From Polynucleobacter sp. (GTDB lineage Bacteria; Pseudomonadota; Gammaproteobacteria; Burkholderiales; Burkholderiaceae): a stretch of 64,000 nt of DNA. The stretch covers positions 1 to 64,000 of the forward strand of contig JAOAUK010000026.1 in assembly GCA_030157655.1 (NCBI GenBank), in the 5' to 3' direction. The translations under genes were made by a program, and so were the position numbers. The notes under the pieces are model-generated. The model made no database searches. It worked only from the letters and a program-made list of their open reading frames with translations, and was not told where the DNA came from. Shown one piece after another: positions 20,290 to 53,018 of the stretch (positions are counted from its first letter, which is position 1; each line of letters starts with the position of its first letter).

Positions 20290-20299
20290 TTTTTCAAAA

Positions 20300-20389
20300 C
20301 CTCTAAGGAGCGTTGCGAGGTGTTTGGTTCAGCCAAGCACCCTAGGCTTAGAGGGAGGCAAATGCCTTTAGCAACGACGCTCGCTAACC
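20300..20389 (+). promoter_or_regulatory. SAH riboswitch (S-adenosylhomocysteine) upstream of ahcY
   Basis: CCTCTAAG/CTTAGAGG P1 stem, conserved GGAGCGTTGC and GCAACGACGCTC pairing, position directly before ahcY. Confidence 0.88.
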
Positions 20390-46777: not shown

Positions 46778-46799
46778 TTAAATCAGCGAATGAAATATA

Positions 46800-46830
46800 G
46801 GGCTAAGCTTAAAGCTTGGCCCTTTTTTTT
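46800..46830 (+). terminator. Rho-independent terminator of dsbA
   Basis: GGGCTAAGCT-TAA-AGCTTGGCCC (one wobble) followed by TTTTTTTT. Confidence 0.88.
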
Positions 46831-49240: not shown

Positions 49241-50010
49241 TTGCTAACTTCCACAGATGGTGGTTCGGGCTTGGAGTGAAATTGAACTCCTTTTAGCCAT
49301 AAACGTAATGCTTGCCAATGTATTCGTGCAATCACGCCGATACTCATTGCTGGATATCGAATGGCGGACCAGATTAAATTTTTAATACTGATGTCGTGCT
49401 CAATACCATTAACGCTGGTGATCAGTAGGGGGCCTTCATCATGATATTCAATACGTGCAATGTGTTGCTTGGACAGTTCTTTTGAAAAAAACCTAAATAG
49501 GTAATGACCTTTTACTTCGCAAAATGGTGATACGTGAAATACTTTGTTGGATATATAGCTTTCACCCCATTCAATATTTTTGCCGTTAGGGTGAGTTAGT
49601 AAGTAACAGTGTCTTTCGCCAAATGTGTTGTTAACTTCAGCCAAAATAGCTTTTGTATCTCCAGCAGTATTTTCAAAAAACCAGAAGCTAACAGGGTTAA
49701 ATACGTAACCTAGCACGCGGGGGAAGGTTTGCAACCAAACTTCACCATCAATATCAGTAATGCCTTGGTTTTTAATGAGAGCAATAGCCCACTCAAGAGA
49801 GCTGTCTCTCCCATCACCATGATCTTTGTCGTAAAACGATAGCCAGGAAAATTGATTGTCACCCAAGCCAAATTGACTAATGCCTTTAGTGCTATTAACT
49901 CTTTGGCGCATTGGAATGCGTAAAGTAAAAACTGAATAGGCAAAGGAATTTTTTGCTGGCTTTAAGCGGGCATGTCTAACTTGGCCGAAGCAAATCTTTG
50001 CAATGCTCAT
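49237..50010 (-). CDS. DUF1365 family protein
   Basis: GYVFNPVSFWFFENTAGDTKAILAEVNNTFGERHCYLL. Confidence 0.93.
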   Translation of the reverse strand: MSIAKICFGQVRHARLKPAKNSFAYSVFTLRIPMRQRVNSTKGISQFGLGDNQFSWLSFYDKDHGDGRDSSLEWAIALIKNQGITDIDGEVWLQTFPRVLGYVFNPVSFWFFENTAGDTKAILAEVNNTFGERHCYLLTHPNGKNIEWGESYISNKVFHVSPFCEVKGHYLFRFFSKELSKQHIARIEYHDEGPLLITSVNGIEHDISIKNLIWSAIRYPAMSIGVIARIHWQALRLWLKGVQFHSKPEPPSVEVSK

Positions 50011-51338
50011 GCAAGTGCAGCAGGGTGATGATGTGAATGAAGTATTTGATGGATTGCTTCTGCAACTAATTCACCTGAGCGTAGGCCATCTTCATGAAAT
50101 CCGTATCCTGTCCATGCTCCACAGAACCAAGTATTTTTAGAGCCTTGGATGAGTGGCAAGTTGGCTTGTGCTTTGATGGCGGCCTGGTCAAATACCGGGT
50201 GGGCGTATTCAATGTCAGCTCTTATGGTTGTGGAATCAGGTTCGACGACAGGGTTTAAGCTGACTATCACTGGTTGATTATTCCAACTTGCTGGCAATGG
50301 CTGAAGTTTATTAATTAAGTAATTGACGCAAACTTGTTGATTGTGGGTTTTGGTTGATTTATCAGTTGTGTAATTCCATGCCGCCCAGCATCTTTTTTCA
50401 TTAGGTAAAACAGACGCGTCTGTATGAAGTACGGCACGATTCTTTTGATAGTGAATGGAACCCAAAATGGAAGATTCATCATTGCTAGGATCTGCAATCA
50501 TCTGAAGTGCTTCATCGCTGTGCGTGGCTATGACAACGTGATCATAAATTTCAGATGATTGATTCGTTAACAATTGAACTTGATTGTTGAGTCTTTTGAT
50601 CGAATCCACTTTAGATCTTTTAAAGATGCCGCCGGCTAATTCAATTTTTTCGCATATCTTTTTGACATACTCTCTTGATCCACCTGATACTGTTAACCAT
50701 TGAGGTCTATCAGTGATTTTTATCAAGCCATGGTTGTGGCAAAAGCGAATCATCGTTGAGATTGGGAAAGCTAGCATTTGCTCAACAGGACATGACCATA
50801 TAGCACCCACCATTGGTAAAAAATACCAATCTTGAAATTGTTGGCTGAACCCATGTTTTGTTATGAACTCACCTACCGTTAAGTCAAGTTGATCTAGTTT
50901 TTTATTTAAAGCTAGTTTTGTGCAAAGACTGTTAAATCTAATGATGTCTTTTACCATCACAAGAAAACTAAGATTAAATAGATTTTCTCTTTGTGCGAAT
51001 AAAGAATTTAAGTCGGTACCTGCCCATTCTAAATATTGACCATCATGATTTGGGATTGATACAGAGAATGACATGTCAGACTTTGCAATAGGGGCATCAA
51101 TTTCATGAAACAGTCTTAATAGTCTTGGGTAAGTTCTTTGATTAAAGACTAAAAAGCCAGTATCAATACCGTGAGTTACAGGACCTTTGTCTGTGTCGAG
51201 TGTTAAGTCAACAGTATTGCTATGCCCGCCTATATGGTCGCCACCCTCATATATAGTTAGTTCAATATTTGGTAGCTTGCTAAGAGCGTATGCGCAACCC
51301 AAACCAGATATGCCTGCACCTATAACGGCAATTTTCAT
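50007..51338 (-). CDS. FAD-dependent amine oxidase-like flavoprotein
   Basis: MKIAVIGAGISGLGCAYALSKLPNIELTIYEGGDHIGGHSNTVDL; FCGAWTGYGFHEDGLRSGELVAEAI. Confidence 0.93.
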   Translation of the reverse strand: MKIAVIGAGISGLGCAYALSKLPNIELTIYEGGDHIGGHSNTVDLTLDTDKGPVTHGIDTGFLVFNQRTYPRLLRLFHEIDAPIAKSDMSFSVSIPNHDGQYLEWAGTDLNSLFAQRENLFNLSFLVMVKDIIRFNSLCTKLALNKKLDQLDLTVGEFITKHGFSQQFQDWYFLPMVGAIWSCPVEQMLAFPISTMIRFCHNHGLIKITDRPQWLTVSGGSREYVKKICEKIELAGGIFKRSKVDSIKRLNNQVQLLTNQSSEIYDHVVIATHSDEALQMIADPSNDESSILGSIHYQKNRAVLHTDASVLPNEKRCWAAWNYTTDKSTKTHNQQVCVNYLINKLQPLPASWNNQPVIVSLNPVVEPDSTTIRADIEYAHPVFDQAAIKAQANLPLIQGSKNTWFCGAWTGYGFHEDGLRSGELVAEAIHQILHSHHHPAALA

Positions 51339-51366
51339 TTTGATTCACTTTGCGCTAAATAGAAGA

Positions 51367-51442
51367 AAACCACAAGACGCCTGTGAGCAATAAAAAGGGA
51401 GGGAGAGAAAGGATGCTCAGCAGGTTTCATGTCTTGTGGTTT
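51367..51442 (-). ncRNA. Long intergenic hairpin with C/U-rich loop; candidate regulatory RNA element or terminator
   Basis: AAACCACAAGAC/GTCTTGTGGTTT perfect 12-bp outer stem, inner CCTG-(C)-TGAGC/GCTCA-CAGG, loop ATCCTTTCTCTCCCTCCCTTTTTATT. Confidence 0.55.
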
Positions 51443-51449
51443 AAAAAGG

Positions 51450-52253
51450 TTAGTGTCTATTTCTCTTATCGTTAGATAGCCATGCATAAGCCGAGTGGTT
51501 ATGTATGGATTCAAAATTCTCTGATGACACTTCGTATGCGATTACTTTGCCCTCTTGTTCAAGAGCTACAGCGATATCTCTAACAAGATCTTCTACAAAT
51601 TTAGGGTTGTCGTAGGCGCGTTCTGTGACATATTTTTCATCTGGGCGCTTTAATAATCCCCATAGTTCGCAAGAGGCTGCTTGTTCGGCGATTTTGATTA
51701 AGTCCTCTGCGGCCATATCCTCAATTAACTCTGCGGCTATCACTATGTGTGAGCGCTGATTATGGGCACCATATTCAGAGATCTTTTTTGAGCAAGGGCA
51801 CAAGCTAGTGACTGGTACTTGCACTTGAAGTGTGTACTTTAGGTTGCCATCTTTATATGCTGCTTTGATGTGAAGGTCGTAATCTAAAAGACTTTCTACT
51901 CCAGAAACCGGTGCCACTTTTTTTAAGAACAGCGGCATTCTTAAATCGATATGACCTTCTTCCGCTTCTAGTCTGTTGAGCATGGTTACCATCATGGTTT
52001 TCACGCTGGCAAGACTGAGTGGATCGTGATGGTTTTGTAGTACCTCTAAAAACCTAGACATATGTGTGCCTTTAACATTGCTTGGTAGTAGCACTGTCAT
52101 ATCAATCATTGCAACACTTGGTTGTGTGCCAGTTTGTGTTTTAAGCATCACTGGATGGCGCACAGATTTAATGCCTACTTTTTGAATAACAATATTGCGC
52201 TCATCAAGACTTGCTTGAACGTCTGGTAGGAAAATGTTCTCTGGTGCATTCAT
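51450..52253 (-). CDS. folE2: GTP cyclohydrolase I type 2 (FolE2)
   Basis: TGTQPSVAMIDMTVLLPSNVKGTHMSRF, VTSLCPCSKKISEYGAHNQRSHI. Confidence 0.96.
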   Translation of the reverse strand: MNAPENIFLPDVQASLDERNIVIQKVGIKSVRHPVMLKTQTGTQPSVAMIDMTVLLPSNVKGTHMSRFLEVLQNHHDPLSLASVKTMMVTMLNRLEAEEGHIDLRMPLFLKKVAPVSGVESLLDYDLHIKAAYKDGNLKYTLQVQVPVTSLCPCSKKISEYGAHNQRSHIVIAAELIEDMAAEDLIKIAEQAASCELWGLLKRPDEKYVTERAYDNPKFVEDLVRDIAVALEQEGKVIAYEVSSENFESIHNHSAYAWLSNDKRNRH

Positions 52254-52255
52254 GA

Positions 52256-52882
52256 TTATTTTTCCTTAAGTAACTTTTCAATTTGAGCGGTCAATGTTTT
52301 ACCGCTAGGTGAGGTCATGCTGCTATATGCTTCTACGACATTGCCTTGACGATCTATTAAGTACTTATAAAAATTCCAGCGTGGTTTGGTGTTGGTTTTT
52401 TCAATTAATAATTTAAATAGAGGATTGGCATCGTTGCCACTCACTGATGTTTTGGCAAACATTGGGAATTTCACGCCGTAAGTGTTGTGACAAAAATCAG
52501 CAATTTCTTTGTTAGATCCTGGCTCTTGCTTACCAAAGTCGTTAGATGGAAAGCCTAAAACTACAAATCCCTTGTCTTTGTATTGTGCAAATAGTTTTTC
52601 AAGACCATCGTATTGACCAGTAAATCCACAGTAGCTCGCTGTATTGACCACTAAGATCACTTTTCCTTGGTATTGGCACAAGTTTTGAGGTGCTTCATCT
52701 TGAAGCCTTGGAAAAGTAAATGAGAGTGATGCTGGGCAACTCATGGCTTGAGCCTCCTTGGGCCAAGAAAACCACATTAAACCTATTAAAATCAGGGTGA
52801 TAAGGTTAATTTTGTAAAACAAATTCCCCAGGTCTTTTGCCTGTTGTGGGATGAACGGTCTTTTTTTAAAATCGACCTGCAT
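52256..52882 (-). CDS. Glutathione peroxidase with N-terminal TM/signal segment
   Basis: VILVVNTASYCGFTGQYDGLEKL, VLGFPSNDFGKQEPG, PRWNFYKYLID; hydrophobic N-terminus LITLILIGLMWFSW. Confidence 0.92.
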   Translation of the reverse strand: MQVDFKKRPFIPQQAKDLGNLFYKINLITLILIGLMWFSWPKEAQAMSCPASLSFTFPRLQDEAPQNLCQYQGKVILVVNTASYCGFTGQYDGLEKLFAQYKDKGFVVLGFPSNDFGKQEPGSNKEIADFCHNTYGVKFPMFAKTSVSGNDANPLFKLLIEKTNTKPRWNFYKYLIDRQGNVVEAYSSMTSPSGKTLTAQIEKLLKEK

Positions 52883-52945
52883 TGGGTTTGTCTCCTCGAC
52901 CCGCTTTTATTTTTTGTTTAATGCCCCTTGGACAAACATGGTCTT

Positions 52946-52955
52946 TGTCTAGGAC
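52946..52955 (+). promoter_or_regulatory. Box A TGTCTAGGAC, candidate MerR/LitR operator
   Basis: 10-mer identical to Box B; also the right half of GACAAA-N7-TTTGTC (52931-52949). Confidence 0.5.
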
Positions 52956-53007
52956 GAAAAACTAATATGAATGCATATTACCCACAAAATAAAAAAAATG
53001 CAAATGA

Positions 53008-53018
53008 TGTCTAGGACA
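53008..53018 (+). promoter_or_regulatory. Box B TGTCTAGGACA, candidate MerR/LitR operator
   Basis: TGTC-TAG-GACA near-palindrome, 62 bp from Box A, in the divergent intergenic region. Confidence 0.5.

Follow-up and report, generated by a model that had tools for sequence, protein, structure and literature searches.

The 76-nt hairpin that lies between folE2 and an amine-oxidase-like gene of Polynucleobacter sp. is almost certainly a functional RNA with a selected loop. It was studied in a window of 64,000 nt (the whole stretch of DNA analysed, from contig JAOAUK010000026.1). Compensatory changes in the stems of 15 homologues, together with an invariant loop core, indicate that this hairpin is more than a chance fold. 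We propose that it is a clade-specific regulatory element that belongs to the folE2 3' UTR within the gpx-folE2-amine oxidase-DUF1365-CFA operon. As for its action, there is about an even chance that the C/U-rich loop belongs to a 3'-UTR or processed RNA acting by antisense pairing with Shine-Dalgarno (SD)-like sites, and the weight beyond this reading is split between a protein-binding site and an attenuator. The features are collected in Table 1.

Table 1. Location of the hairpin, its parts and the neighbouring genes in the window
Feature	Position	Strand	Basis or remark
Whole hairpin, 76 nt	51367..51442	minus	Folding, homologues, covariation; flanked by folE2 and the amine-oxidase gene
Outer stem, 5' arm AAACCACAAGAC	51431..51442	minus	Pairs kept or compensated across 15 genomes
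Inner stem, 5' arm CCUG-C(bulge)-UGAGCA	51414..51424	minus	4 inner-stem pairs changed on both sides
Invariant loop core UUUCUCUCCCUCCCUU, anti-SD-like, candidate pairing site	51395..51410	minus	Identical in 13/13 intact homologues
Inner stem, 3' arm UGCUCACAGG	51380..51389	minus	Folding and covariation
Outer stem, 3' arm GUCUUGUGGUUU	51367..51378	minus	Complementarity and covariation
U-rich tail UUUUCUUCUAUUU	51357..51369	minus	Start overlaps stem base; weak, intrinsic-terminator-like; conserved in alignment
folE2, directly upstream of hairpin	51450..52253	minus	Pfam GCHY-1, NCBIfam FolE2; clade-specific second FolE2 copy
Amine-oxidase-like flavoprotein gene, first gene downstream of hairpin	50007..51338	minus	
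gpx (glutathione-peroxidase-like), first gene of presumed operon	52256..52882	minus	
gpx ribosome-binding region GGGUCGAGGAGACAAACCC, conserved	52884..52902	minus	Best-scoring local loop partner, tentative; not above composition-shuffled loops

A preliminary description of this DNA had proposed a perfect 12-bp outer stem, a 9-bp inner stem with one bulge and a 26-nt loop, and this architecture was recovered; the U-rich tract UUUUCUUCUAUUU follows. The outer arms, of 12 nt each, are 100% complementary. An asymmetric internal loop separates them from the inner stem, in which CCUG-C(bulge)-UGAGC(A) faces (U)GCUCA-CAGG to give 9–10 pairs with one bulged C, and the terminal loop measures 24–26 nt depending on whether the closing A-U pair is counted. 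The minimum free energy was -31.5 kcal/mol against -20.0 kcal/mol for dinucleotide shuffles (z = -3.5), and only 1 of 200 shuffles folded as well. The hairpin starts 8 nt after the folE2 stop codon on the same strand, which places it directly 3' of a coding gene.

The homologues gave evidence of selection. In the 15-sequence alignment (12 distinct sequences), which was itself fitted to the covariance model, 96.7% of the stem cells were paired and 7 pairs were changed on both sides (C-G/U-A, A-U/G-C and others). The covariation score of 0.298 was reached by none of 500 shuffles (0.146 for the shuffled alignments), and control structures slid along the alignment scored at most 0.119. The same picture was obtained from a MAFFT alignment of 12 sequences (97.8% paired, 5 pairs, 0/500 shuffles). 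The 16-nt loop core was found among the 186 Polynucleobacter genomes at the hairpin only, and no change in it was needed on the tree of the amine oxidase for the 12 genomes that carry the loop. On the same tree, none of the 73 four-fold sites of the adjacent amine-oxidase gene was invariant (mean 4.0 changes), and the coding alignment of that gene contained no invariant run longer than 8 nt. The central idea of the preliminary description, a functional anti-SD-like C/U-rich loop, is thus supported, as the loop is invariant in orthologous loci while the stems covary. In the sister genomes G078 (L044) and G084 (L043) the stem survives and both the loop and the U-tract have decayed, which looks like a functional loss in one lineage. 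These two genomes offer a natural loss-of-function control for target searches.

The domain matches bore out the gene context that had been described, with the hairpin between gpx-folE2 and a lipid cassette. The order on the minus strand is gpx, folE2, the hairpin, amine oxidase, DUF1365, a cyclopropane-synthase-like methyltransferase, an SDR and a SnoaL-like protein. The divergent neighbours are a MerR/B12-binding regulator, whose match to the CarH model (108 bits) falls under the cut-off of that model, and a photolyase-related protein. The gpx-folE2-amine oxidase gene set is probably a light/oxidative-stress operon. The next start codon lies about 30 nt past the hairpin and leaves no space for a promoter, so that the lipid cassette most likely depends on read-through.

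The region upstream of the operon showed further conserved features. Immediately ahead of the ATG, the gpx leader shows strong conservation within the clade, and its purine-rich SD is enclosed by short GGG/CCC arms that covary in some genomes, possibly forming a hairpin at the ribosome-binding site (RBS). Farther upstream of gpx, repeated CCTAGACA sites occur at 52926-52953 and 52999-53015 (minus strand), one of which forms the near-palindrome CCTAGACAA-N-TTGTCCAAGG. They flank a conserved promoter-like stretch (TTTGCAT...TAATAT) and are candidate operators of the adjacent CarH/LitR-like regulator.

The hairpin is restricted to one clade of the genus. A blastn search of 186 Polynucleobacter genomes found the element in 12, and a covariance model built from these 12 copies and run on the same genomes raised the number to 15, always with one copy per genome. 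In 399 sampled genomes of the order, the model found nothing apart from the window's own genome. The carriers coincide exactly with the genomes whose amine oxidase is closest (at least 62% identity), plus G009, in which that gene is deleted; the remaining Polynucleobacter have an amine oxidase of at most 60% identity and lack the hairpin. Named members of the clade are P. cosmopolitanus MWH-MoIso2, a P. meluiroseus MAG and the strains AM-26B4, MWH-Loch1C5 and 30F-ANTBAC. The single copy per genome ruled out a dispersed repeat. A wider spread of the sequence was also dismissed, as the exact 19-mer in GTDB contigs outside Polynucleobacter comes without the hairpin. In contigs of the MAG UBP16_UBA6123 (L120, L124, L127, L128 and L135), AACCTTTTCTCTCCCTCCCTT is located near the ends, as if a repeat had broken the assembly, and it is unrelated to the hairpin.

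The comparison with other loci indicates how the element appeared. Clade genomes have two FolE2 copies, one being the genus-wide copy found elsewhere in the genome (G000:C16:6163-6939), which is 57–63% identical to the operon copy. Because gpx adjoins the amine-oxidase gene (about 17 nt) with no folE2 in between at the 16 non-clade loci inspected, and the operon FolE2 is clade-only, folE2 and the hairpin appear together in the clade. The operon folE2 was lost in G006 and G080, where the hairpin is retained with an identical loop, and in G009 a deletion has joined the first part of the amine-oxidase gene to the last part of the SnoaL-like gene, so that the cassette is gone and the hairpin stays; all three are metagenome assemblies and their deletions are tentative. 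The persistence of the hairpin without folE2 or without the cassette therefore points to selection on the hairpin itself.

The preliminary description had considered that the structure could be just a terminator. If the hairpin were no more than an intrinsic terminator or attenuator separating gpx-folE2 from the lipid cassette, its loop sequence being of no importance, this would agree with the operon position, the A-U pairs at the stem base and the conserved UUUUCUU that follows the stem on the coding strand. However, neither the 24-nt loop nor its invariant 16-nt sequence is needed for terminating, so a plain terminator is insufficient to explain them. Terminator scores of the intact copies, calculated with a formula from the literature, lay between -19 and -33, whereas a control terminator at 46799-46823 reached +36, and the hairpin remains in G009 despite the loss of the cassette. 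We consequently regard this explanation as improbable. The proposal that the hairpin partly separates gpx-folE2 from the lipid cassette is still plausible as an attenuator, since the U-tract, though weak, is conserved, and the downstream genes lie about 30 nt beyond the hairpin.

Two readings that place the signal elsewhere were considered very improbable. One is a functional RNA on the plus strand, where the purine-rich loop AAGGGAGGGAGAGAAA carries GGA motifs and could be a decoy for CsrA/RsmA or an antisense RNA to folE2. The CsrA decoy was rejected, as no CsrA was found in the 8 genomes tested; the U-rich tail, the direction of the operon and a weak G-U bias (10 G-U cells against 4 A-C cells on the minus strand, a mild preference) also favour the minus strand. 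The other, hardly credible as well, is that the region codes for a conserved small protein or a leader peptide, which would overlap the start of the amine-oxidase gene. In 9 of 15 genomes a 31-aa ATG frame (MKPAE..FSPSL...) runs through the loop and stops at the ATG of the amine oxidase, but the other genomes are not open in the same frame, the ATG has no preceding SD, and the stop codon arises automatically from ATGA. Moreover, the third positions in the loop are invariant while the nearby four-fold sites all change. The small-protein reading was rejected because the frames are not conserved.

For the antisense reading, the pairing partners of the loop were searched. The Hfq gene was present in 8/8 genomes tested. 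Among the leaders of 62 genes in the window, the best partner of the loop was the gpx RBS, which ranked 1–6 of 62 in every loop-bearing genome tested and 9–13 in the two loop-decayed genomes. Because 37% of shuffled C/U loops paired with the gpx leader as strongly, this pairing is suggestive only; it is the best locally, yet not beyond what C/U composition gives. Perfect 10-nt complements of the loop (GGGAGGGAGA) were few besides the hairpin itself, with none at genes common to the genomes, and among the matches listed for an exact GGGAGG before ATG in six genomes no convincing clade-wide orthologue was seen. With up to 2 mismatches, the 16-mer matched a single intergenic site, conserved among three close relatives, which is probably not transcribed as a target because it lies upstream of a promoter-like TATAAT. 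In G027, G143 and G184 (L166, L167 and L168), TTTCTATCCCTACCTT, two mismatches from the loop, is located near a TATAAT-like box, and this stretch is conserved without long open frames. For the suggested pairing of the loop with SD regions, the gpx RBS is the best local candidate, though not above composition, and no conserved trans target was found in these searches.

The absence of a conserved RNA target in these searches also suits a different explanation, in which the operon mRNA is stabilised, cleaved or terminated by a protein bound to the loop (e.g., a cold-shock protein, ribosomal protein S1, Rho or an RNase). A protein site would be just as much expected to combine a covarying stem with a pyrimidine-rich, single-stranded loop that does not vary. 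On the other hand, such proteins are widespread, whereas the hairpin occurs in one clade with one copy per genome, and the explanation comes without a candidate protein. We consider it rather unlikely.

Under the antisense reading, the hairpin would be transcribed as part of the operon mRNA, and some transcripts probably terminate at the weak U-tract, while cleavage may free a short stable RNA. The remaining transcripts would read through into the lipid cassette. The stem is predicted to present an open 24-nt C/U-rich loop, whose 16-nt core could pair with purine-rich SD-type sequences and lower the translation of one or more mRNAs, with the gpx of the same operon as a possible target. In its most far-reaching form, which we find doubtful, the element would define a new RNA family restricted to the P. 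cosmopolitanus/P. meluiroseus-type clade. A single hairpin in mid-operon would then curb read-through into the membrane-lipid cassette and, by means of its anti-SD loop, repress the translation of gpx of the same operon and perhaps of other mRNAs. If true, it would be a feedback switch built into the light-stress operon.

Several known RNAs are similar in their presumed action. SmelA075 and RS0680a carry anti-SD CCUCCUCCC loops on variable stems and are stress-induced (PMC3927594), and CcsR1-4 are cut from a 3' UTR (PMC8625941). The preliminary description had compared the hairpin with the CcsR type, and the likeness to CcsR1-4/RS0680a of Rhodobacter and to the 'cuckoo'-type SmelA075/SmelA099 of Alphaproteobacteria is found in the invariant C/U-rich anti-SD loop on variable stems and in the association with stress genes. 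However, these RNAs have CCUCCUCCC in several tandem hairpins, whereas Polynucleobacter has one hairpin with the loop CUCUCCCUCCCUU, which is betaproteobacterial and located mid-operon between folE2 and the oxidase gene. The CcsR/cuckoo motif CCTCCTCCC had 0 matches in the window, and no tandem hairpins with the same loop were seen, with one copy of the loop motif in the window. At the Rfam gathering threshold the hairpin had no match, and the only other matches were to implausible eukaryotic lncRNAs (E of at least 1.6); a relation to the CcsR/cuckoo RNAs by sequence was not found either. Membership in the CcsR type is therefore not sustained for this element of a single Polynucleobacter clade.

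In RepG of Helicobacter pylori, the C/U-rich loop of the terminator pairs with a G-rich leader (PMC8295292), and here too the C/U-rich loop of a terminator-like hairpin is a candidate pairing site. The difference is that RepG is an independent intergenic sRNA gene directed against a homopolymeric G repeat, while the Polynucleobacter hairpin forms part of an operon. OppZ and CarZ of Vibrio cholerae are autoregulatory 3'-UTR RNAs (PMC7398697), and the hairpin is like them in being an operon 3'-UTR structure that may act on its own operon; unlike here, they are experimentally shown RNase E cleavage products, whereas the pairing with the gpx RBS is only weakly predicted and the hairpin sits in the middle of the operon. 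With an ordinary Rho-independent terminator it shares the stem followed by a U-rich tract, but it has a long invariant loop, a weak tail and downstream genes apparently needing read-through. Since motif, copy number and phylogeny differ, we regard the likeness to the C/U-rich-loop sRNAs (CcsR/SmelA075, RepG) as one of presumed action and not as demonstrated membership of any of them.

Polynucleobacter are abundant freshwater bacteria with small genomes, and our literature search for small RNAs in Polynucleobacter found nothing specific to the genus. The hairpin would be an independent betaproteobacterial case of the C/U-rich anti-SD loop device of the alphaproteobacterial stress sRNAs and of Helicobacter. 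It is a testable element, with a 16-nt invariant loop, a covarying hairpin, culturable strains and an operon beside the gene of a B12-binding (CarH/LitR-like) regulator. Elsewhere in the window, an SAH riboswitch aptamer (RF01057, 51.8 bits) was located at 20299-20389 on the plus strand and was the only Rfam match of the window at the gathering threshold.
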